Source: Pseudomonas sp. L5B5 (GTDB taxonomy: Bacteria > Pseudomonadota > Gammaproteobacteria > Pseudomonadales > Pseudomonadaceae). From it: a stretch of DNA of 64,000 bases. The notes under the pieces were generated by a model. The model did no database searches. It was not told the DNA's origin and saw only the letters and a list, made by a program, of their open reading frames with translations. Of this stretch, positions 18,127 to 32,119 are shown in pieces (positions within the stretch are counted from its first letter, which is position 1; each line of letters begins with the position of its first letter). Location of the stretch: contig NZ_CP084742.1 in the NCBI RefSeq assembly GCF_020520285.1, positions 248,001 through 312,000 of the forward strand, in the 5' to 3' direction. The position numbers were made by a program, and so were the translations under genes.

Positions 18127-18519
18127 ATGAACAACCGTCTCGCACCGCTCTGCGCCGCTGTCCTGGCCCTGAGCCTGCCGGTGCTGGCGCACGCCGCACA
18201 GCCACAGGCTCAGGTCGAGCAACCCTCCTACCAGAGCCAGGTGGCGCGCTACCAGTGCGAAGGCAAGGTACGCATCGATGCGGCGTACCTGAACATCGAC
18301 AATGGCGCGTCCTTCGCGACCCTGTATTACAAGGAGCAACTGATCCCGATGCACATCGCGCGCTCGGCCTCGGGGGCCCTGTATGTGGCGGACGACGAGC
18401 AGAACAGCTTCCGTTGGCACACCAAGGGCAAGGGCGCCGTGCTGTCGTTCCTGGAGGCCGATCACACGGCCAAGGAGCAAATCCTGCTCAAGGACTGCAA
18501 GGAACTGGATCCTCAATAA
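18127..18519 (+). CDS. MliC-family periplasmic lysozyme inhibitor
   Basis: The 130-residue protein starts with a signal peptide (MNNRLAPLCAAVLALSLPVL, cleavage near AHA-AQ). The mature domain has YQCEGKVRIDAAYLNIDNG, ATLYYKEQLIPMHIARSASG and YVADDEQNSFRWHTKGKGAVL, the beta-barrel pattern of MliC/PliC. The conserved serine and lysine/arginine loops that insert into the C-type lysozyme active site lie in SASG and KGKG. One cysteine pair (C in YQCEG and KDCKE) can form a disulfide. It acts in the periplasm against host lysozyme. GGGGGAAA upstream sets the start at 18127. Confidence 0.88.
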   Translation: MNNRLAPLCAAVLALSLPVLAHAAQPQAQVEQPSYQSQVARYQCEGKVRIDAAYLNIDNGASFATLYYKEQLIPMHIARSASGALYVADDEQNSFRWHTKGKGAVLSFLEADHTAKEQILLKDCKELDPQ

Positions 18520-18533
18520 CGCCCATTCCTGGC

Positions 18534-18566
18534 GGCAAAAAAAGGGCCCGCGGGAGCGCGCGGGCC
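18534..18566 (-). terminator. Minus-strand intrinsic terminator facing mliC
   Basis: On the minus strand GGCCCGCG and CGCGGGCC form a GC-rich stem (with a short loop) followed by a seven-base T-run. This is a typical terminator for transcription moving left towards mliC. On the plus strand the hairpin has no T-run, so it is not an obvious mliC terminator. Confidence 0.6.
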
Positions 18567-18608
18567 AATACCTTAGTTGCTTGAATGAGCAGGGCGACTA
18601 TACCGAGG

Positions 18609-18656
18609 CGCAACCGGGGCCTGGATGAAAGAAGTTTCATCCAGGCCCCGGTTGCG
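18609..18656. repeat. 22-bp perfect inverted repeat (hairpin)
   Basis: The 22-base arm at 18609-18630, CGCAACCGGGGCCTGGATGA followed by AA, has an exact complement after a 4-nt GAAG loop, giving an extremely stable hairpin on either strand. No T-run follows in either direction. It may block transcription or translation read-through between mliC and the small gene at 18745, or be part of a minus-strand RNA ending at the 18534-18566 terminator. Confidence 0.7.
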
Positions 18657-18744
18657 TATTTGGTCGGCACCCGACGAGCCGCAGGTGGATCTGTTCTAAC
18701 CTCAAGGGGTAAATCAAAAATCCCCTTCAGGAAGAGAGGTGGGC

Positions 18745-18903
18745 ATGGCACTGCAACAGCAACGCCCCAGCGAGCATGAGCGCAGCGATAAAACGGAGGA
18801 ACTCGAAGTCGAGCATCAGGAGCCGCCACCGCAGACCTGGAAGCATCCGGATGACGGCAAGAGCCTGTCGGAACTGGATGAAGAACGCCCCTTGAGGCCA
18901 TGA
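18745..18903 (+). CDS. Small hydrophilic protein (52 aa)
   Basis: ATG at 18745, preceded by a GGAAGAGAGGT ribosome site, opens a 52-codon frame with a coherent, strongly charged product: MALQQQRPSEHERSDKTEEL at the start and WKHPDDGKSLSELDEERPL at the end. It has no hydrophobic segment. The composition (Glu, Lys, Asp, Pro) and ribosome site favour a real gene over chance. No family is recognised. Its stop is 10 bases before the left duplication flanking the 167-bp element. Confidence 0.6.
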   Translation: MALQQQRPSEHERSDKTEELEVEHQEPPPQTWKHPDDGKSLSELDEERPLRP

Positions 18904-18925
18904 GCCAAAGCCCCGCCACCGAGCG

Positions 18926-19092
18926 TAATGCCAGTCAGTCAAGCGAGGTGATCCTCTGTAGGAGCAGCCGGTCGACGCTCGATTGCTCGCGATGGTCGTT
19001 AACGGTAGCGCGTATTGGCTGGATAAACGCAGCGCTCTGAAATCCATGCGGGCAAGCCTCGCTCCTACCATTTCCTTGACTGATCGGCATTG
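18926..19092. mobile_element. 167-bp MITE-like inverted-repeat element, copy A
   Basis: The element begins TAATGCCAGTCAGTCAAG and ends CTTGACTGATCGGCATT. The two ends are near-perfect inverted repeats of about 17 bases. Internally GTAGGAGC and GCTCCTAC form a second nested inverted pair. It is flanked by a direct duplication of CGCCACCGAGCG at 18914-18925 and 19093-19104. It has no coding capacity. A closely similar copy lies at 31139-31305 and a diverged one at 15004-15113. These features indicate a non-autonomous element mobilised in trans. Confidence 0.8.
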
Positions 19093-19202
19093 CGCCACCG
19101 AGCGGGGCTGTCGTTGGTGGTGCCTGTTGCCCGCTCTGGTACCATCGCCGGCGTTGCCGTCCCGGGGTATCGGGACGGGTTGTCTGTCCAAGGGAGAAAC
19201 CC

Positions 19203-19523
19203 ATGATTGTCACCACCACCGCCCAGATCGAAGGCCGCCAGATTGCCGCCTACCTGGATATCGTCAGCTCCGAGTCTGTCCAGGGCATCAACGTGGTGCG
19301 CGACCTGTTCGCCGGCATGCGCGATTTCTTCGGTGGACGGTCCCAGACCTTGGAGCGCGCCTTGAGGGAGGCCCGGGTCCAGGCTACCGACGAGATCAAG
19401 GATCGTGCCCGCAGGCTCGATGCCGATGCGGTGGTCGGCCTGGACTTCGAGATCAGCATGCCTTCAGGACGCGGCGGCATGGTGGTGGTCTTCGCCACTG
19501 GCACGGCGGTCAAGCTCAAGTAG
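19203..19523 (+). CDS. YbjQ/UPF0145-family protein
   Basis: The 106-residue protein has the family segments MIVTTTAQIEGRQIAAYLDIV, a central FFGGRSQTLERALREAR and DADAVVGLDFEIS near the end, with a final short beta strand. YbjQ-family proteins form pentameric barrels of unknown biochemical role (sometimes annotated as heavy-metal-binding). The start has AAGGGAG 6 nt upstream. It lies just right of the inserted 167-bp element, whose insertion may have displaced or replaced part of its promoter. Confidence 0.9.
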   Translation: MIVTTTAQIEGRQIAAYLDIVSSESVQGINVVRDLFAGMRDFFGGRSQTLERALREARVQATDEIKDRARRLDADAVVGLDFEISMPSGRGGMVVVFATGTAVKLK

Positions 19524-19533
19524 CCTTCGTTGC

Positions 19534-19926
19534 TCAAGCCCCGATCGGGGTACACAACTCCACCAGCGTGCCATCCGGACAACGCACATAGGACACGGTC
19601 TGCCCCCAGGGCTTGGTCGCGGGGGCGGCCAGTTCCCGGGCGCCATGTTCCAGCGCCCTGGTGTGGGCCCCTTGGACGTCCTCGGTAACCAGTCCCAACT
19701 CCATGCCCAGCGGTTGTGGCGAGCTGTGCGCGGCGATGTGCCCGTCCTTGAAGTTCATCTGCGCCAACTGGTGGTCGGCAAAGGCCAGGGCGGTGCTGCC
19801 GGTATCCAGTTCACCGTAGGTGCCGGACTCATGAAGGAAGCGGCGCTTGAAACCGAAGGCCTGTTCGAAGAACCGCAAGGATGCTTCCACATTGGGTACA
19901 TAGATGATGGTGTAACCGAACTGCAT
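19534..19926 (-). CDS. VOC-superfamily (glyoxalase/bleomycin-resistance-like) protein
   Basis: The 130-residue protein has two beta-alpha-beta-beta-beta repeats. YTIIYVPNVEASLRFFEQAFGF is the first and ELGLVTEDVQGAHTRALEHGA with WGQTVSYVRCPDGTLVELCTP is the second. A metal-binding glutamate is expected in VELC. Small single-domain members act as metal-dependent lyases, dioxygenases or binding proteins, and the substrate cannot be told. It converges with the ybjQ-like gene, 10 bases apart. AGGGAG precedes the ATG. Confidence 0.85.
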   Translation of the reverse strand: MQFGYTIIYVPNVEASLRFFEQAFGFKRRFLHESGTYGELDTGSTALAFADHQLAQMNFKDGHIAAHSSPQPLGMELGLVTEDVQGAHTRALEHGARELAAPATKPWGQTVSYVRCPDGTLVELCTPIGA

Positions 19927-20010
19927 GGGCTGACGCTCCCTGTCGCTGAATGAGAAGTGGCGAATCTAGCACGAAGTTGCCTGGCGAGCCCCCGCCTGCA
20001 AGGCCCGCAA

Positions 20011-21651
<1,641 letters not shown>

Positions 21652-21838
21652 CAGCACCTCCGGAAAATGTGGAGACAGGCCAACGAGCGCCTGGGCTCGT
21701 CGCGGATACATTTTTGGAAGGCTTAGTGGTTCACGTCGGCAATCGTCCTGGGACGGGAAAGAAGGTGCGTAGACTAATGCCGGAATAATTTGCCTGGCAA
21801 GCGCCAGAATGTACCGACTTTGTATTCAGGCCAACTGC

Positions 21839-22864
21839 TCAGGGTTGGGACAGATCCTGGAGAAAACGGGCCAGGGCGGCTTCCTCGGCCTTCAACCACA
21901 GGCGTTTGCGCGATCGTGGCAAGCGTGCCAGTGCCCCCAGGGCAAAGTGCTCCAGCAGCGCCGGGTGGATGTAGCACTTGCGGCAGACCGCCGGTGTATT
22001 GCCCAGTTCGCGGGCCACCTGCTTGATGGTGTCCACCAGGTGCTTCCTGGCTTCGGTTTCCGGCTGCCAGGGCTGGCGACGCAGCAGCGCCAGGGCCAGC
22101 GCACTGCCGGCCCAGGTGCGGTAGTCCTTGGCGGTGAATGTTGCACCGGTCAGTTGCTGCAGATGGAGATTGATGTCCGAGGAGCTCACCGAGTGACGCT
22201 GGCCGTCTTCATCCAGGTACTGGAACAGTTGCTGCCCGGGCAGTTCCCGGCAGCGCTTGACCACTCGGGCCAGGCGCGGGTCCCTGACCGTGATCTGGTG
22301 TTCGATGCCGCTCTTGCCGCGAAACTGGAAGTGAATGGCATTGCCGTTGACCTGCACATGGCGGTTGCGCAGGGTGGTCAGGCCATAGGAGCGATTGTCC
22401 CGGGCGTACTGGCTGTTGCCGACCCGGATCAGGCTTTCATCCAGCAAGGTGATGATCGTGGCCAGGACTTTCTCGCGACTGAACCCCGGCGCTGCCAGTT
22501 GCGCCTGCAATTGCTTGCGTAGGCGGGGCAGGGCCTGGCCGAACTGCAACAGCCGGGAGTACTTGTCGCTGTCGCGGACCTCGCGCCAGCGTGGGTGATA
22601 ACGGTACTGCTTGCGGCCCCTGGCGTCGCGCCCGGTCGCCTGCAGATGGCCTCTGGGATCGGCGCAGATCCATACCTGGACATAAGCCGGGGGGATCGCC
22701 AGAGCGTTGATGCGCTGGATTTCAGCGGCATCGGCGATGCGCTGGCCCTGGGCATCGTAGTAGGCGAACTTGCCCCGCAGCTTGCGTCGGCTGATCCCGG
22801 GCTGGCGGTCATCGGTGTAGTGCAGGTCAGGGGGCAGGTCGGGGGTGGCCGGAGTATCGGACAT
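21839..22864 (-). CDS. DNA topoisomerase IB
   Basis: The 341-residue protein is of the poxvirus-like bacterial type IB group. RKLRGKFAYYDAQGQRI and IPPAYVQVWICADPRGHLQA form the N-terminal clamp. The catalytic pocket includes RVGNSQYARDNRSYGLTTL, the FRGKSG loop and TAKDYRTWAGSALAL. The nucleophilic tyrosine is expected in CRKCYIHPALL near the C-terminus. It relaxes supercoils by cutting one strand through a 3'-phosphotyrosine intermediate. AGGA precedes the start. This family is accessory to topoisomerase I in Pseudomonas. Confidence 0.9.
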   Translation of the reverse strand: MSDTPATPDLPPDLHYTDDRQPGISRRKLRGKFAYYDAQGQRIADAAEIQRINALAIPPAYVQVWICADPRGHLQATGRDARGRKQYRYHPRWREVRDSDKYSRLLQFGQALPRLRKQLQAQLAAPGFSREKVLATIITLLDESLIRVGNSQYARDNRSYGLTTLRNRHVQVNGNAIHFQFRGKSGIEHQITVRDPRLARVVKRCRELPGQQLFQYLDEDGQRHSVSSSDINLHLQQLTGATFTAKDYRTWAGSALALALLRRQPWQPETEARKHLVDTIKQVARELGNTPAVCRKCYIHPALLEHFALGALARLPRSRKRLWLKAEEAALARFLQDLSQP

Positions 22865-22944
22865 GGCAGCAGATCCTGGGCGAGCGGCGGGACGATAGAG
22901 AGTGGACCGCGCCGTCGCGCCGGGGTGCCGGTTTTCTGCGCCCC

Positions 22945-24027
22945 CTATGCCAGGACCGCCACCGCCTTGATCTGGGCCCAGAGTGATTGGCCGGGGTGCA
23001 GGCCGAGCTGGTCCCGGGAATAGCGGGTAATGCGCGCGAGCAAGGGGGTGCCCATGGCGTCCAGGCGTACCAGTACATGGGCGGCATTGTCGGCCGGAAT
23101 TTCCTCGCTGACGGTGACCGGCAGGCGATTGAGGATGCTGCTGTGCTCGCTGGCCTGCAGGCTCAGGCTGACATCGCGGGCCTGGACCTTGAAGCGCACG
23201 CTCCTGCCTGGGGCGACGGGTTCATGGGCCACGCGCACCAGAAGGTCGCTGCCGGGCAGGCGCAGGCTCAGCAGCTGATAGTCCGGGTCATAGGCGCTGA
23301 CCTGGCCCTGCACCACCACGCCGGCATCGTCGCCCAGGGCCAGTGGCAGGTCCAGGCGGGCCAGGGTGGTGCCGACGGGGCCGCTGGCCAGGGCCCGGCC
23401 TTCACTGAGCAGGACGATATGGTCGGCCAGGCGCGCGACTTCATCCTGGGAGTGGCTGACGTAGAGCACCGGGATGTCCAGTTCGTCATGCAGGCGTTCC
23501 AGGTAGGGCAGGATTTCACCCTTGCGCTTGGCGTCCAGGGCCGCCAGGGGTTCGTCCATCAGCAGCAGCCTTGGGCTGGTGAGCAGGGCCCGGGCGATGC
23601 CGACGCGCTGGCGTTCGCCACCCGACAGGTGCTGCGGGTGACGTTGCAGCAAATGCCCGATGCCCAGGAGCTCGGTGGCGTGGGTCATGTCGACCCGGCG
23701 CTGCTGCTTGGGGATACGCCGCAGGCCGAACTCCAGGTTGGCTTGCACCGACAGGTGGGGAAACAGGCTGGCCTCCTGGAAGACGTAGCCCAGGGAGCGC
23801 TTGTGGGGCGGGACGAACAGTTTGCGCTGGCTGTCCTGCCAGAGTTCATCGTTGATCTGGATGCGCCCGCGCCCGGCCTTTTCCAGGCCGGCGATGCAGC
23901 GCAGGCAAGTGGTCTTGCCCGAGCCTGAGTGGCCAAAGAGTGCGGTCACGCCGCGTCCCGGCAATTGCAGGTCCAGGTCCAGGACGAAATCGCGGTAGTC
24001 CAGTTGCAACTGGAGTTGGATGCTCAT
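22945..24027 (-). CDS. modC: Molybdate ABC transporter ATP-binding protein ModC
   Basis: The 360-residue protein has Walker [21 protein letters not shown], signature [17 protein letters not shown] and Walker [15 protein letters not shown]-terminal MOBE/TOBE domain (residues about 295-355) binds molybdate or tungstate and gates the ATPase. It energises molybdate uptake at the inner membrane. It starts at ATG 24027, 4 bases after the modB stop. The frame extends upstream within modB but is not used. It is the last gene of modABC. Confidence 0.95.
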
Positions 24028-24031
24028 GGAA

Positions 24032-24712
24032 TCAGCTCCAACCGGCTCTGGTCTTGCGGCTCGAATACAGCGCCAGCAGGACCAGGAACGAGAATACCAG
24101 CATGGCCCCGGCCAGCCAGTGGGCCTGGGCGTACTCCATGGCCTCGACGTGATCGTAGATCTGCACCGAGACCACCCGGGTCTTCTCGGGAATGTTGCCA
24201 CCGATCATCAGCACCACGCCGAACTCGCCAACGGTGTGGGCAAAACCCAGGATCGAGGCGGTGATGAAGCCTGGGCGGGCTAGAGGCAGGATCACCGTGA
24301 AAAAGGTATCCCAGGGGTTGGCGCGCAAGGTCGCGGCCACTTCCAGGGGGCGGCTGCCGATGGCCGAGAAAGCGTTCTGCAAGGGTTGCACCACGAAAGG
24401 CATGGAGTAGATCACCGAGCCCAGCACCAGGCCACTGAAGCTGAAGGTCAGGGTGCCCAGCCCGAGGGATTGGGTGAGCTGGCCGAAGAACCCGTTGGGT
24501 CCCAGGGCCAGCAGCAGGTAGAAACCGATGACCGTGGGCGGCAGCACCAGGGGCAGGGCCACCACGGCGCCGATTGGGCCGCGCAGCCAGGAGTGGGTGC
24601 GCGATAGCCACAGGGCAATCGGAGTGCCGACGACCAGCAGGATCAGGGTGGTCAGGGACGCCAGTTTCAGGGTCAGCCAGATCGCGGAGAAATCGGCACT
24701 CGAGAGGTTCAT
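24032..24712 (-). CDS. modB: Molybdate ABC transporter permease ModB
   Basis: The 226-residue inner-membrane protein has five to six helices and the EAA loop contacting Mod[21 protein letters not shown]. The N-terminal [17 protein letters not shown] and the conserved [17 protein letters not shown] segment are typical of ModB. It forms the translocation dimer for molybdate. Its ATG directly follows the modA stop codon with no gap, so translation is coupled. Confidence 0.95.
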
Positions 24713-26723
<2,011 letters not shown>

Positions 26724-26922
26724 TTGAAGTGGTTCTCCAGCGGCGGATTCAGACGATGCTGCGGCGTTTTTTAACAGGAGACAACGGCCTGAGGCCAGCT
26801 GAGTTTTGCCTGGCAGGCACGCAGGTGCGGCAGAACGGCGCGGCGAGGTGACACGCGGCCGCCTTCAGGCGCTAGACTGCGGCGGTTTTTTTCACCCATC
26901 GCATCATTAAGGAAGGTCGACC

Positions 26923-27411
26923 ATGGATGTAAAGCTGCGCCACGTACAGCCCTTCAGTGTGGCGGGATTGCAGGTGCGTACCCTCAACACCCTGGAGCAA
27001 CAGGCTGATACGGCCCGGATTGGCCCGATGTGGCAGCGTTTCTACGTTGAAAACCTGTTCGACAAGATCGCGCCCCGGCAGACGGACTCATTCGTTTACG
27101 GGGTCTATTCCAACTACGAATCCGATGCCTCGGGACACTTTGATGTGACCGCCGGCGTGGCGCTGGAGGGTGCCTGCGCTGAATACCCGACGGTGGAAAT
27201 CCAGGGTGGGGATTACCTGGTGTTCAGCGCCAAGGGGGAGATGCCGGAGTGCGTGATCCAGGCCTGGGGATTCATCTGGGCCTATTTCCAGGACAATCCC
27301 CAGGTGCGTCGCGCCTATGCCACCGATTTCGAGGTCTATGCCAGCGTCGACGCGGTGGCGATCTATATCGGCGTTCATGCCTCGGGCGAGCTTTCTCGTT
27401 CCAGCAACTGA
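26923..27411 (+). CDS. GyrI-like / AraC effector-binding domain protein
   Basis: The 162-residue protein consists solely of a GyrI-like small-molecule binding domain. KLRHVQPFSVAGLQVRT is the first strand, FVYGVYSNYESDASGHFDVT is central, and IQGGDYLVFSAKGEMPECVI and VEVYASVDAVAIYIGV-type strands follow (here FEVYASVDAVAIYIGV). There is no DNA-binding domain. Members sequester toxic ligands or hydrolyse cyclopropanoids. AAGGAAGG precedes the start. Its 3' end overlaps the convergent ada gene by 37 bases. Confidence 0.85.
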   Translation: MDVKLRHVQPFSVAGLQVRTLNTLEQQADTARIGPMWQRFYVENLFDKIAPRQTDSFVYGVYSNYESDASGHFDVTAGVALEGACAEYPTVEIQGGDYLVFSAKGEMPECVIQAWGFIWAYFQDNPQVRRAYATDFEVYASVDAVAIYIGVHASGELSRSSN

Positions 27412-28448
27412 CGCTTGCGTTCCACGCCCCAGCGATAGCCCGAGAGGTCGCCGTCGCTGCGCACCACGCGGTGGCAGGGAATCGCCACCGCCAGGCTGTT
27501 GGCACCACAAGCCTGGGCCACTGCCCGGTACGAACGCGGGGCACCGATGCGCTGGGCAATCTCGGAATAACTGGCGGTGCTGCCGGCCGGGATGGTCCTC
27601 AGGGCCTGCCAGACCCGCTCCTGGAAAGCCGTGCCGCGCAGGTCCAGGGGCAGGTTCAGGCCGATGGCCGGCTCCTCGATGAAACCCACCACCTGGGCCA
27701 CCAGTTGCTCGAACTGCTGGTCGGCGCCGATCAGGTTGGCCCGGGGAAATTTGTCCTGCAGTTCCTGCACCAACCGCTCGGGATCGTCTCCCAGGAGAAT
27801 GGCGCAGACCCCGCGCTCGCTTTGGGCCACCAGGATCGCTCCCAGCGAGCACTGGCCCACGGCGAAGCGGATATCGCGGTTGGAGCCACCTGCACGATAG
27901 TCGCTGGGCTTCATGCCCAGGACCTGGTCCGCAGCCTCGTAGAAGCGGCTGTTGGAATTGAAGCCGGCGTCGTACAGCGCATCGGTCACTGATTGACCCT
28001 GCTGCAAATGCGAACGGACCTTGCGCGAGCGCTGCGCATTGGCATAGCCCCGTGGGGTCAAGCCGGTGACCGCCTTGAATACCCGGTGGAAGTGGTAGCT
28101 GCTCATCCCAGCCTGCTGTGCCAGCTGCTCCAGGCTGGGAGGCGACTCGGCGTTCTCGATCTGCCGGCAGGCGGCAGCCACCAGCGCGCCGTGGTGCGCC
28201 GCGAGCTGGGTCTGGTCGCCGGCCTGGCGCTTGCTCGGGCGATAACCTGCGGCCTCGGCTTGCTCGGCATTGTCGAAGAACTCGACGTTTTCCGCCTTCG
28301 GCAGGCGCGACAGGCTGCTGGGCCGGCAATACACGCCGGTGGTCCTGACGGCATACACGAAGTCTTGATCGGCGCTGGCGTCGCGCTTGAGCACAGCCTG
28401 CCAGCGAGGGTCCTGTTCAATACACTGTTTGCGCGACGGAGCATTCAT
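27375..28448 (-). CDS. ada: Ada-type methylated-DNA repair protein and regulator, zinc site altered
   Basis: The 357-residue protein has the three Ada parts. The N-terminal phosphotriester-repair domain is residues 1-75, an AraC helix-turn-helix (SSYHFHRVFKAVTGLTPRGY) is in the middle, and the C-terminal O6-methylguanine methyltransferase has the acceptor Cys325 in IPCHRVV. In E. coli Ada four cysteines bind zinc. Here only the methyl acceptor (Cys41) remains, and the other three positions are Ser45, Ser72 and Gln75. The C-terminal repair activity looks intact, but zinc-dependent phosphotriester sensing is doubtful. It is last in the 2OG oxygenase-alkB-ada unit. ATG 28448 is chosen by alignment. 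Confidence 0.9.
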   Translation of the reverse strand: MNAPSRKQCIEQDPRWQAVLKRDASADQDFVYAVRTTGVYCRPSSLSRLPKAENVEFFDNAEQAEAAGYRPSKRQAGDQTQLAAHHGALVAAACRQIENAESPPSLEQLAQQAGMSSYHFHRVFKAVTGLTPRGYANAQRSRKVRSHLQQGQSVTDALYDAGFNSNSRFYEAADQVLGMKPSDYRAGGSNRDIRFAVGQCSLGAILVAQSERGVCAILLGDDPERLVQELQDKFPRANLIGADQQFEQLVAQVVGFIEEPAIGLNLPLDLRGTAFQERVWQALRTIPAGSTASYSEIAQRIGAPRSYRAVAQACGANSLAVAIPCHRVVRSDGDLSGYRWGVERKRQLLERESSPEA

Positions 28449-28479
28449 GGTCGGTACTCGACGGGAGATGGTTGCCAGA

Positions 28480-29214
28480 TTACCCGCCTGCCGCCTGATC
28501 GGCACTCCGGCGCTTGCGGTCAAACTCCGCGGGCGCTCCGGCCTGGCGAAACGTCAGGTTGATGCGTTGCCGGCCAAGCAGGGGGTGGGCCCCGTCCTTG
28601 ACTGGCAGGACCCCGTGATAGCGCAAGCGATCCACGCCACCCCAGACCACCACGTCGCCGTGCAGCAACGGGATTCGCAGGCTCCTGTCGCTGCGTTGCG
28701 GGCCGCCGAACAGGAATACTGCCGGCAAGCCCAGGGACAGGGACACGATGGGCGCGCTGTAGTCGCGCTCGTTCTTGTCCTGGTGCAGGGACATCTTCGC
28801 TCCGGGGCGATAGCAATTGATCAGGCACGAGTCGGGGGCGAATCCGGCGAAACCTGCAGCGTCTGCCGCGGCCTCGGCCAGTTGCCGGAATACCTCGGGC
28901 ATGGCCGGCCAGGGACGGCCGCTCTGCGGATCGATCGGGCTGTAGCGATAGCCGCTGCGGTCGGTGGTCCAGCCCAGGTGCCCGCAACTGCTCAGCCCTA
29001 CCGACATGGTGAAGCCGCCCGGGGTGAGCATGTGCCGAAAGGGCGCCTCGGCCAGCACCTGCTCCAGCGCCGGCAGCAGGCGTTCGATCCAGGGCAGGGC
29101 GAACCCATGCAGCGCTCGCGATTGTGGGCCTAGCCGCTCGGTACGCGCTGGCTGTTGCAGTTGCTCCTCGCTGAACAGTCCGAGGCTGGCCGGGGCTTCA
29201 TCACTACAGTGCAT
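28480..29214 (-). CDS. alkB: AlkB alpha-ketoglutarate-dependent DNA demethylase
   Basis: The 244-residue protein has the AlkB core. TMSVGLSSCGHLGWTTDRSGYRY binds substrate, and SCLINCYRPGAKMSLHQDKNE supplies the His-x-Asp iron pair. The distal histidine is in LRYHGVLPVKDG, and RINLTFRQ provides the 2-oxoglutarate-binding arginine. It oxidatively removes methyl groups from 1-methyladenine and 3-methylcytosine. It overlaps the upstream oxygenase gene by 11 bases and lies 31 bases before ada, giving an alkylation-repair operon. Confidence 0.93.
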   Translation of the reverse strand: MHCSDEAPASLGLFSEEQLQQPARTERLGPQSRALHGFALPWIERLLPALEQVLAEAPFRHMLTPGGFTMSVGLSSCGHLGWTTDRSGYRYSPIDPQSGRPWPAMPEVFRQLAEAAADAAGFAGFAPDSCLINCYRPGAKMSLHQDKNERDYSAPIVSLSLGLPAVFLFGGPQRSDRSLRIPLLHGDVVVWGGVDRLRYHGVLPVKDGAHPLLGRQRINLTFRQAGAPAEFDRKRRSADQAAGG

Positions 29215-29920
29215 CGTGGAAAATCACTCCGAGGGTATGGCGCTGGCCACTGTGGACACGGCTGACGCCGTGGCGCATGGTCACTCGGTAATGGCCGCGG
29301 GAGCCTTTTACCGGCCGATGATGCACGGCGAACAGCAACCCATCACCTTGCTTCAGGCCAACGACCTGCGGCCGCGATTGCATGCGTGGGCGCTGTTCGG
29401 TGAGCACCAGTTCGCCGCCGGTGAAGTCCATCTCGGGCTGCGACAGCAGGAAGACGGCCTGCAAGGGAAATACATGCTCACCGTAGAGGTCCTGGTGCAG
29501 GCAGTTGTAGTCCCCGGCCCCGTATTGCAGCAACAGGGGGGTGGGCCGTTCCTGGCCGGCGCCATGGCAGCGCTCGAGAAAGTCGGTGTGCTGCTCGGGG
29601 TAGCGGATGTCGATGTCCATGGTCTGGTTCCAGCGGTTGGCGATCGCCACCAGGCGCGGGTATAGCTGGTGGCGCAACCGGGCGACGAGCTCGGGCAGCG
29701 GATAACGAAAATACTGGTACTGGCCCAGGCCGAAACCATGGCGGGCCATCAGCACGCGGGAACGGAACAACTCGTCCTGTGGGTAGAGCCGGGCCAGGGC
29801 CTGGCACTCATCGACGCTCAGCAGGCCATCAAGGCGGGCACAACCGTCCTGGTCGAGGGCCTGCTCGATACAGGCCCAGTCCAGTTCTTGCAGGCGTTGT
29901 GGCAGAGAGGGAGTGGTCAT
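29204..29920 (-). CDS. 2-oxoglutarate/Fe(II)-dependent oxygenase
   Basis: The 238-residue protein is a second non-heme iron oxygenase of the prolyl-4-hydroxylase-like fold. TPLLLQYGAGDYNCLHQDLYGEHVFP holds the His-x-Asp pair and FTGGELVLTEQRPRMQSRP follows the core strand. The distal His is in YRVTMRHGVSRVHSG. It heads the alkB-ada unit, so a role in alkylation or nucleic-acid repair is likely, although related members act on other substrates. AGGATA precedes the ATG. Confidence 0.88.
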   Translation of the reverse strand: MTTPSLPQRLQELDWACIEQALDQDGCARLDGLLSVDECQALARLYPQDELFRSRVLMARHGFGLGQYQYFRYPLPELVARLRHQLYPRLVAIANRWNQTMDIDIRYPEQHTDFLERCHGAGQERPTPLLLQYGAGDYNCLHQDLYGEHVFPLQAVFLLSQPEMDFTGGELVLTEQRPRMQSRPQVVGLKQGDGLLFAVHHRPVKGSRGHYRVTMRHGVSRVHSGQRHTLGVIFHDAL

Positions 29921-30009
29921 GACACGGGTATCCTGGGCAGGGAACGGATTCCAGTCAGTCTGCGGCCCGTCAGCATGGCGGGCACTCCGCTACTTGCGCT
30001 TGAATCCGG

Positions 30010-30177
30010 TTACAAGGCCTTGCTCACACTGACTTCGCTGATCACGTCGGCCTGGCCGTGCAAGGCCTGCAACGCGGCCAGGGCTTCTTGTGCCGTGCCG
30101 CTCTCGAGTTGGGCGAATTCGAAGCGGCGCTCGCCGTTGAGCTTGTATTTGATGACGTACTTGGTGGTCTTGGACAC
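30010..30177 (-). CDS. Small conserved protein (55 aa) downstream of the DUF1883 gene
   Basis: A GTG at 30177 with AGGTAGC upstream opens a frame beginning SKTTKYVIKYKLNGERRFEF and ending ADVISEVSVSKAL. It reads as an alpha-beta fold with alternating strands. It is 40 bases downstream of the DUF1883 gene on the same strand, so the two are probably co-expressed. No function is known. An earlier TTG is possible but lacks a ribosome site. Confidence 0.65.
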   Translation of the reverse strand: MSKTTKYVIKYKLNGERRFEFAQLESGTAQEALAALQALHGQADVISEVSVSKAL

Positions 30178-30217
30178 GGGGCTACCTGTTTGTCGCAAGG
30201 AGGAGGGCGCGCGCAAC

Positions 30218-30520
30218 CTAGCGCAGTTTCGAGGTGGAGCGGCGGACGATGCGAATCGAGTGGGTCAGGTTCGGCTTGCGGGTCACGCTGATGGCACGGC
30301 GGCTGACGGTGTCGATGGTGATGTTCCAGAAGCCAGTACTGGGTGCGACGATCTTCGCCGGGAACTTGTCGAAAGCGCCACCGTGGTAGGTATGTCGGCC
30401 GCCGTTCTTGAAACTGCGAAAGTTAGCGTCGTTCATCAGGCGGATGTTGCAGGCCTGGGAGCACTCGATGACGACGATGTCGTCTTCGTTCAGGTGCTCG
30501 CGCTGGTGGATGAATTTCAT
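30218..30520 (-). CDS. DUF1883-domain protein
   Basis: The 100-residue protein begins MKFIHQREHLNEDDIVVIEC, the typical start of DUF1883. It then has NIRLMNDANFRSFKNGGRHTY and a strand-rich second half, FPAKIVAPSTGFWNITIDTV. It is basic and soluble, with no signal peptide. The family is uncharacterised. DUF1883 has been found fused to TIR domains elsewhere, which hints at a nucleotide- or protein-binding role. It starts at ATG 30520. Confidence 0.88.
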   Translation of the reverse strand: MKFIHQREHLNEDDIVVIECSQACNIRLMNDANFRSFKNGGRHTYHGGAFDKFPAKIVAPSTGFWNITIDTVSRRAISVTRKPNLTHSIRIVRRSTSKLR

Positions 30521-30728
30521 CGGGACTCCAGAAAGCCAATTGCGGCTAAAGCAAAAACGTTTGCGTGGGCGGTGCTGCAGTTTATCAGGCCCAAGGGTTT
30601 ATTATTCGGCCTCGCCGTCGAGCTTTGACAATTTAAAACAGTTATTTGGATTTTTATCGGCGATAAAGCCGGGCCTCCGGAGAAAAACGGCGAACTGAGT
30701 GTCGGAGGGACTTTACTGGAGATTTTCT

Positions 30729-31082
30729 ATGAAGCGGTGGGTGTGGGTACTGGCATTGGCAATCGGTGGTTGTTCCACCGTCTCGGATATCAACCAGACG
30801 CCACCGACCTTGAACGTGATTTCCGGCAAGAAGCCCGAGGATTACGCCAAGTGCCTGGCCGCCAGGCTGGCCGACAGCCGTGGTGCCTTGCAGCTCGAGC
30901 CGAACAAGGCCGGGGGATACCGGGTGATCATCCCGCAAAGCTTGTCATCGGCACCGGCGGCCATCTTCTATATCGACGAACGTTCCGGTGGTAGCAGCAT
31001 CAAGCTGCACGAGCAGATGTCCAACAATCCATTGCGTCCCCAGGATGTGCTCAAGGCCGGGGAGCGCTGCATCTCCGGCTGA
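30729..31082 (+). CDS. Small lipoprotein
   Basis: The 117-residue protein starts at ATG 30729 with TGGAG upstream. The sequence MKRWVWVLALAIGGCSTVSD has a type II signal peptide and lipobox (IGGC), so the mature protein begins at Cys15 and is membrane-anchored. The residue after cysteine is Ser, consistent with outer-membrane sorting. The rest has two cysteines (YAKCLAARLADSR and GERCISG) likely to form a disulfide, and no recognisable family. The first ten codons of the upstream extension are not used. Confidence 0.8.
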   Translation: MKRWVWVLALAIGGCSTVSDINQTPPTLNVISGKKPEDYAKCLAARLADSRGALQLEPNKAGGYRVIIPQSLSSAPAAIFYIDERSGGSSIKLHEQMSNNPLRPQDVLKAGERCISG

Positions 31083-31138
31083 AAAAGTTGGCGACAAGCC
31101 TGCGCGGTGTCCTGCATCTAATTGGTAGGGGCACTGGC

Positions 31139-31305
31139 TAATGCCTGTCAGTTAAGCAAGGTGATCACCGTAGGAGCAGCCGGTCGACGCTCGATTGCTC
31201 GCGATGGTCGGTAACGTTAGCGCGTGTTCACTGGATAAACACAGCGCTCTGAAGTCCATCGCGGGCAAGCCTCGCTCCTACAATTTCCTTAACTGATCGG
31301 CATTA
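31139..31305. mobile_element. 167-bp MITE-like inverted-repeat element, copy B
   Basis: This copy begins TAATGCCTGTCAGTTAAG and ends CTTAACTGATCGGCATTA, matching the termini and length of copy A (18926-19092) at about nine of ten positions over the whole element. The target duplication GGGGCACTGGC occurs at 31128-31138 and 31306-31316. The element lies between the lipoprotein gene and tsdBA in a 386-base region with no other gene. It carries no coding sequence, so it must depend on a transposase encoded elsewhere. Confidence 0.8.
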
Positions 31306-31468
31306 GGGGCACTGGCGGGGTTTTTTATTGGCTGCAGAAATGGCCCCAGGCCCCGAGTATTCCAGTGTTGGCGGGCAATTGGGCGTTGTCGGTGTGGATC
31401 TATTGACCTACTATTCGTCTGCTTATATCAAGTAAGTCTAAGCATATAACTAGAATAATGGAGTTCAT

Positions 31469-32119
31469 ATGATCCCACTGGATCGAATGCTATTGAGTGG
31501 CCTGATGCTGCTTTTTGTGCAATCTGCCCATGCCGTGGACGGGCAGAAAGTCTTCACCCAGGGCGGTTCCCAGCCGGGAGCGGCAGCCTGCCTGGCCTGT
31601 CATGGCGCGGACGGGATGGGCTTGGCGCCCGCCGGTTTCCCACGCCTTGCCGGGCTGCCGGCAGGTTATCTGAGCAAGCAGCTGCATGATTTTCGCAGTG
31701 GTGCTCGCACCAGTCCGGTCATGCAGCCGCTGGCCAAGGCACTGACCGAAGACGAAATCACCGCGGTGACCGCCACGCTGGCCGCCATGCCTGTTCCGAA
31801 AACCCTCCCGGCCAGTCGCAGCCAGTCGGCCGTTGGTGTTGGTGAGCGCCTGGCCTTGCGAGGCGCCTGGGATCGGCAGGTGCCCGAGTGCGTCAGTTGT
31901 CACGGCCCTGGCGGGGTGGGGGTCGGCCAGGCATTTCCGCCGCTGGCCGGACAGCCTGCCACTTATCTGGTGGCGCAGTTGAACGCCTGGCGTGAAGGTA
32001 CACGGCACAATGACCCCAATGACCTGATGGGGCATATCGCCAAATCCCTGAGCGCCGAAGAAGTGACCGCAGTGGCGGACTACTTCGCCAGTCTGAGCCA
32101 GAAGGAGACACGCCCATGA
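31469..32119 (+). CDS. tsdB: Diheme c-type cytochrome, TsdB-like
   Basis: The 216-residue periplasmic protein has an N-terminal signal peptide (MIPLDRMLLSGLMLLFVQSA) and two heme sites, CLACH (about residue 40) and CVSCH (about 138), in duplicated c4-type domains each with a distal methionine region. In tsdBA operons TsdB is the diheme electron acceptor of the thiosulfate dehydrogenase TsdA. Its last codons overlap the tsdA start as ATGA, so translation is coupled. GGAG lies upstream of the ATG. The name follows from the pairing, and c4 function elsewhere is possible. Confidence 0.8.
   Translation: MIPLDRMLLSGLMLLFVQSAHAVDGQKVFTQGGSQPGAAACLACHGADGMGLAPAGFPRLAGLPAGYLSKQLHDFRSGARTSPVMQPLAKALTEDEITAVTATLAAMPVPKTLPASRSQSAVGVGERLALRGAWDRQVPECVSCHGPGGVGVGQAFPPLAGQPATYLVAQLNAWREGTRHNDPNDLMGHIAKSLSAEEVTAVADYFASLSQKETRP

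Follow-up and report, generated by a model that had tools for sequence, protein, structure and literature searches.

A mini-element with IS4-type ends and a REPIN core in Pseudomonas sp. L5B5, and its probable insertion at the apex of intrinsic terminators

A short repeat that encodes no transposase is present twice in the 64,000-nucleotide stretch of the Pseudomonas sp. L5B5 chromosome analysed here (the window), which raises the question of what kind of unit it is, which enzyme moves it and how its sites are chosen. In the reading that we prefer, to which we attach a probability of roughly 86%, the repeat is a MITE with IS4-subgroup ends and a REPIN core that is moved in trans by an IS4-type transposase and inserted at the apex of intrinsic terminators. 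As judged from sequence comparison, this reading draws on the ends, the target duplications, the centring of hairpins on these duplications, uninterrupted homologous sites, the REPIN core, and full-length relatives that share these ends and lie in comparable targets.

Boundaries and ends of the element

The two copies in the window and their parts are as follows.

18926..19092, forward strand: copy A, a MITE-like mini-element of 167 bp bounded by duplications
18914..18925, forward strand: left 12-bp target duplication of copy A
19093..19104, forward strand: right 12-bp target duplication of copy A
18926..18943, forward strand: terminal repeat TAATGCCAGTCAGTCAAG of copy A, resembling the AG end of E. 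coli IS4
19075..19092, reverse strand: terminal repeat CAATGCCGATCAGTCAAG of copy A, resembling the GA end of E. coli IS4
18958..18995, forward strand: left REP of the nested REPIN core of copy A
19044..19068, reverse strand: right REP of the nested REPIN core of copy A
31139..31305, forward strand: copy B, the same element as copy A
31128..31138, forward strand: left duplication of copy B, GGGGCACTGGC
31306..31316, forward strand: right duplication of copy B, followed by GGGGTTTTTT

The original prediction described a 167-bp inverted-repeat element with a 12-bp duplication, and the interval 18926-19092 indeed lies between exact 12-bp repeats, CGCCACCGAGCG on both sides. Read inwards, the two terminal repeats differ only in their first base and in an adjacent AG/GA pair. 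The ends of IS4 in E. coli MG1655 are TAATGCCGATCAGTTAAGG and TAATGCCAGTCAGTTAAGC, and comparison with these indicates that copy A retains the GA/AG asymmetry of IS4. A search of the window for the end motif returned five matches against 0.09 expected, four of which correspond to the termini of the two copies. The GTAGGAGC and GCTCCTAC arms, at 18958 and 19061, are internal, and GTAGGAGC was rejected as the end of the element because the terminal repeats and the duplications lie outside it. The prediction had connected the element with a known type of repeat at its ends; such repeats are present as an internal REPIN, while the actual ends are of the IS4 type. Overall, its MITE-like unit, duplications and boundaries stand, but it misjudged the nature of the ends and missed both the nested REPIN and the hairpin-apex target.

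The IS4 subgroup is characterized by ends of the form -AATR--------WTW---- and target repeats of 10-13 bp (De Palmenaer et al. 2008, PMC2266710). The majority sequence of 14 aligned copies, TAATGCCAGTCAGTTAAG, conforms to this end pattern, from which copy A deviates by a C for T at position 15. The duplication length likewise agrees, so that the boundaries are, as had been anticipated, informative about the mechanism and point to the IS4-subgroup class of enzymes. The DDE transposase with the Y(2)R(3)E(6)K signature is absent from the element, which is therefore not itself an IS4 element, the subgroup denoting the origin of its ends only. It is short, non-coding and multicopy and has ends in common with an autonomous insertion sequence, as is typical of MITEs.

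Copies in the same genome

From 112 first-look candidates in the L5B5 genome, 40 scored matches were obtained, and 32 of these reach at least 87% identity. A pair of ends, in several cases a weak one, is present in 35 of 50 loci examined, including two (L073 and L081) for which BLAST gave no match with the element of copy A; the other 15 were left out as both ends, enough flanking sequence or a distinct site were not found. The duplications at these 35 loci are exact in eight cases, have at most one mismatch in 19 and at most two in 26, and of the 26 recognisable duplications 24 are 10-13 bp long, in the range of the IS4 subgroup like the 12 bp of copy A (one of 8 and one of 9 bp make up the remainder, and 11 bp is the commonest length). 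A duplication of at least 10 bp with at most one mismatch has a chance probability of 5e-5 and was observed at 18 of the 35 loci. The predicted discrete, MITE-like and non-autonomous unit is thus borne out by the absence of a transposase and by duplications at most other copies, with nine of the 35 loci lacking a recognisable one at two mismatches or fewer; among these nine is L003, which is nevertheless 92% identical to the window copy.

The copies fall into two length classes of approximately 155 and 167 bp, with the left REP accounting for the difference of about 12 bases, and L029, L064 and L070 are set apart from the other aligned copies by their length class. The left end of L015 and L064 resembles that of a second type of full-length element, TGTTCACTTAAG.

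The interrupted hairpin and its uninterrupted homologues

The target of copy A comprises the following features.

18745..18903, forward strand: gene of 52 amino acids whose 3' hairpin is hit by copy A
18909..18916, forward strand: left arm AGCCCCGC of the interrupted hairpin
19102..19109, forward strand: right arm GCGGGGCT of the interrupted hairpin

When the flanks of copy A are rejoined with a single duplication, the hairpin AGCCCCGC-CACCGA-GCGGGGCT is obtained, directly past the stop codon of the 52-residue gene, for which no Pfam match was found. A homologous gene end in another genome (L172; 73% identity over 94 bases, in a BLAST alignment that ends just 5' of the hairpin) carries no insertion and has the same stem with the loop CTAGTA and a subsequent T-run, i.e., the GC-rich stem-loop and T-run of an intrinsic terminator. 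The alignment of a further locus (L171) spans the copy A site at 74% identity, with a different hairpin at this position. Seven other genomes align without interruption across the site of copy L009 (L141, L143-L148), and two uninterrupted sites in other genomes correspond to that of copy L008 (L173, L174). The homologous uninterrupted sites hold one copy of the duplicated segment and not both, in keeping with the insertion originally proposed. A separate hairpin of at least 20 perfect pairs is located 3' of an MliC-like gene at 18609-18656 of the window.

The association of duplications with terminators was quantified using hairpin and T-run thresholds of our own. In the L5B5 genome, a hairpin had to lie within 1.5 bases of the duplication centre and a T-run had to contain at least five T in six bases, and 2242 positions shifted by 30-400 bases served as controls. 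A centred hairpin was observed at 16 of the 35 sites (3.3% of controls), a T-run at 18 (3.8% of controls) and both at 13, against one of the 2242 controls. The remaining 22 loci fail this strict combined test, including both copies in the window: the copy A site has the stem and a weak T-run, while that of copy B has a T-run and no centred hairpin.

Target sites of transposase-bearing relatives

Full-length elements that have these ends, encode a transposase and lie in targets of this kind were found in relatives. Among 149 genomes of the genus, 17 have matches to PF13006, that of L5B5 included, and 29 of the 34 matches outside L5B5 were taken as loci; both ends were present in 22 of these, several of them internally deleted, and seven were left out on the grounds given above for the L5B5 loci. 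Of the 22 elements, 20 combine a hairpin with a T-run (28 of 12066 controls), all 22 have a T-run and 15 have exact duplications. These sites are partly non-independent because L114, L125, L128 and L134, in different genomes, have a nearly identical terminator core, CGAACC(C)AGTCG. Internally deleted IS4-type elements of 549-764 bp (L121, L125, L137 and L140) likewise lie in terminators.

A wider Gammaproteobacterial set was drawn from the best 80 of 312 relatives in named genomes, of which 49 distinct sites were measurable and 31 loci were left out on the same grounds, with boundaries set by the ends and duplications rather than by any hairpin. A hairpin was found at 42 of the 49 sites, a T-run at 47 and both at 41, compared to both in 0.31% of 38926 controls, and the sites span Pseudomonas, Vibrio, Idiomarina, Colwellia, Pectobacterium, Aeromonas and others. 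The target of L432 (Idiomarina loihiensis) is identical to that of another measured copy, probably L366 of the same chromosome. In many sites of the genus and Gammaproteobacterial sets the offset between the duplication and the hairpin axis is 0.0. For E. coli IS4, 17 loci (MG1655 and 16 of 60 listed matches, from 5360 places) represent ten locations, three bamD-raiA loci being counted once, and seven of these ten sampled locations, for which there is no control, are terminators; the other three are the K-12 site, a position inside yicI and one inside a paa gene. IS4 was reportedly found in the pheST attenuator in 1984, with a target consensus of AAAN20TTT, which would represent early support for terminator insertion.

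Mini-elements across the genus

Of 398 genomes of the genus, 41 (L5B5 included) were found to contain mini-elements by searches with the ends alone at a spacing of 112-142, compared to none for the backward control, while a spacing of 41-101 returned 20 of the 398 genomes, several with a single REP palindrome. Among the places listed for both spacing patterns, which were the first in each genome and, for the longer spacing, came from part of the 41 genomes, 90 loci representing 89 distinct elements were measured. Of the 89, 77 contain REP motifs in both orientations, as do 0.7% of the 3706 control windows. Perfect inverted repeats of 12 bases or more are present in 76 (1.1% of control windows), and 87 carry any REP motif (18.6%). 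A duplication with one mismatch or none flanks 56 of the 89. The target is a hairpin, regardless of a T-run, in 52 cases (3.2% of 15532 controls) and a hairpin with a T-run in 26 (28 of 15532 controls); the other 63 fail the combined test partly because many sit in REPs. In a larger set of 97 elements, 22 targets match a strict REP-palindrome pattern, for example GGGCTTGCCC; the counts were repeated on the 89 elements above because nine of the 97 had been found by similarity to copy A. Insertions in REP palindromes appear to have 10-bp duplications (L177-L182, L319, L330, L332 and others), while those in terminators often have 11-13 bp.

The site that is hit is a hairpin apex rather than an arbitrary position, and one alternative would ascribe this to survivorship, in that the transposase inserts widely and only harmless insertions at 3' ends of genes last. 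Terminators are safe sites, and the E. coli IS4 copies inside yicI and a paa gene would agree with such a view. Other intergenic positions are, however, equally safe, yet the shifted controls pass the combined test just once; moreover, the duplication is centred on the hairpin axis, and insertions in REP palindromes that lack a T-run fall on this axis as well. We consider survivorship an unlikely explanation of the terminator bias.

We instead favour target choice by the enzyme. The transposase would select the dyad of a GC-rich, hairpin-forming palindrome, recognising either the palindrome or its extruded form, mainly at the apex of intrinsic terminators and also in REP palindromes. Its staggered cut of approximately 10-13 bp would be centred on the axis, and the duplication would therefore comprise the loop and the upper stem.

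The REPIN core

The aligned copies of the L5B5 genome contain two inverted REPs separated by a short spacer, an arrangement that also occurs on its own and thus identifies the core as a REPIN. REPINs with the same left REP variant and without an IS4 end are present in other genomes (L186-L188), and two in L5B5 (L238 and L264) lack an IS4 end at distances of up to 220 bases; L265, also in L5B5, may be a degenerate copy. In two further loci, L290 and L302, a single REP palindrome lies inside the IS4 ends, as if the REPIN spacer had been lost.

REP types vary between the genomes with mini-elements, among the places listed. The one type that was followed, that of the cores in genomes G018 and G370, matches at 308 places in the former and 89 in the latter, with no match in ten further genomes that contain mini-elements. 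Since this type is confined to its hosts, the core is in this case a REP of the host itself, which was either newly recruited or substituted through conversion.

A REPIN core, the existence of REPINs without IS4 ends and three Y1_Tnp matches in the L5B5 genome (counted genome-wide, irrespective of the REP of the core) might suggest that the unit is a REPIN moved by a RAYT, with incidental IS4-like flanks. This is very improbable given that the boundaries fall exactly at IS4-type repeats with target duplications, whereas elements of the IS200/IS605 type are described as lacking both terminal inverted repeats and larger duplications (PMC2817692).

The transposase

The IS4-type DDE transposase proposed here would act on the non-autonomous element in trans, and is probably present only temporarily. 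The single PF13006 match in the L5B5 genome is a broken IS4 N-terminal frame of 150 amino acids; no intact IS4 transposase was found there, and an autonomous partner in this genome was rejected, that match being a broken frame. Full-length elements with the same ends, for which the prediction had proposed to look, were found in relatives, while L5B5 itself has a remnant. At this locus (L082, 560-1330) the IS4 N-terminal frame is followed by a DDE_Tnp_ISL3 fragment that overlaps it in another frame, and a degenerate IS4-type end lies 5' of the broken frames.

In three of three aligned transposases from elements with such ends, the YREK residues Y316, R319, E323 and K330 are invariant. The one transposase query used matched in nine of the 41 genomes in which the longer end spacing had identified mini-elements: G391 has a close intact transposase (94%), G297 seven copies (38%), G137 one match (42%) in a frame of 332 amino acids, and G010 and G238 distant matches (29-31%), with weak or fragmentary matches in the rest of the nine. 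The query gave no match in the other 32, which is not proof of absence because several genomes are drafts. The simplest reading is that the transposase comes and goes.

Relation to known systems

Several described systems share some of these properties. IS4-subgroup elements such as E. coli IS4 carry their transposase, unlike the present mini-element. REPINs and GTAG-tagged REPs (PMC3116915, PMC3733652) consist of inverted REP pairs starting with GTAG, as does the core described here, which differs in being enclosed by IS4 ends with target duplications. REP-targeting insertion sequences such as ISRm22 (PMC1525189) are similar in that an IS4-family element lies at the axis of REP palindromy, but ISRm22 belongs to subgroup IS4Sa (PMC2266710), bears a transposase, generates 6-bp duplications and has REPs, not terminators, as targets. 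Intrinsic terminators also serve as landmarks for class C group II introns, although these are retroelements that insert downstream of the stem-loop and not at its apex (PMC3522654). The Correia/NEMIS and RUP MITEs (PMC2817692, PMC3733652) are equally short, palindromic and non-coding with IS-like ends; these are described as IS630-derived, in contrast to the IS4-type ends and REPIN core found here. 'Bizarre' structures consisting of a REP plus a stem-loop, which may be distinct from the present mini-elements, flank RAYT genes (PMC3733652).

A striking target-arm specificity of the IS4 subgroup was already published in 2008 (PMC2266710), in a paper whose main text does not contain the word 'terminator'. 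In the literature searched, which covered few subscription papers, no statement that IS4-type elements target terminators and no IS4-ended MITE carrying a REPIN was found. Insertion at the apex of intrinsic terminators would provide a simple and directly testable target rule for a long-known group of insertion sequences, and would explain how such elements spread without gene breakage. Furthermore, two mobile systems, IS4 and REP/RAYT, are joined in one short element, and this composite recurs across the genus with cores of different REP types. A broader proposal, which we advance tentatively and at somewhat less than even odds, is that the IS4 subgroup as a whole is specific for terminator apices and that its ends have, in Pseudomonas, repeatedly been wrapped around host REPINs, giving doubly mobile mini-elements that would be spread by a transient IS4 transposase, kept by the resident RAYT/REPIN system and able to rebuild the terminator they interrupt.

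Folding of the inserted element

The copy A element folds better than its shuffles (z -2.6), as might be expected of a conserved, immobile regulatory element of 3' untranslated regions, but we give this idea almost no credence in view of the unrelated sites with duplications, the uninterrupted homologous sites and an Rfam search of 18500-31700 that returned no match at E<=0.1, on which a regulatory RNA was rejected. Averaged over the 12 copies whose outer arms could be measured, the predicted pairing of these arms reaches 0.79 for the real element, 0.44 for a shuffled one and 0.74 for the rejoined site, an effect limited to part of the copies, as in at least six of the 12 the shuffled element pairs the arms about equally or the real element leaves them unpaired. 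Because the element is a long palindrome, the lower arms of the terminator can still pair at its foot, and the folding model suggests that termination may be retained after insertion.
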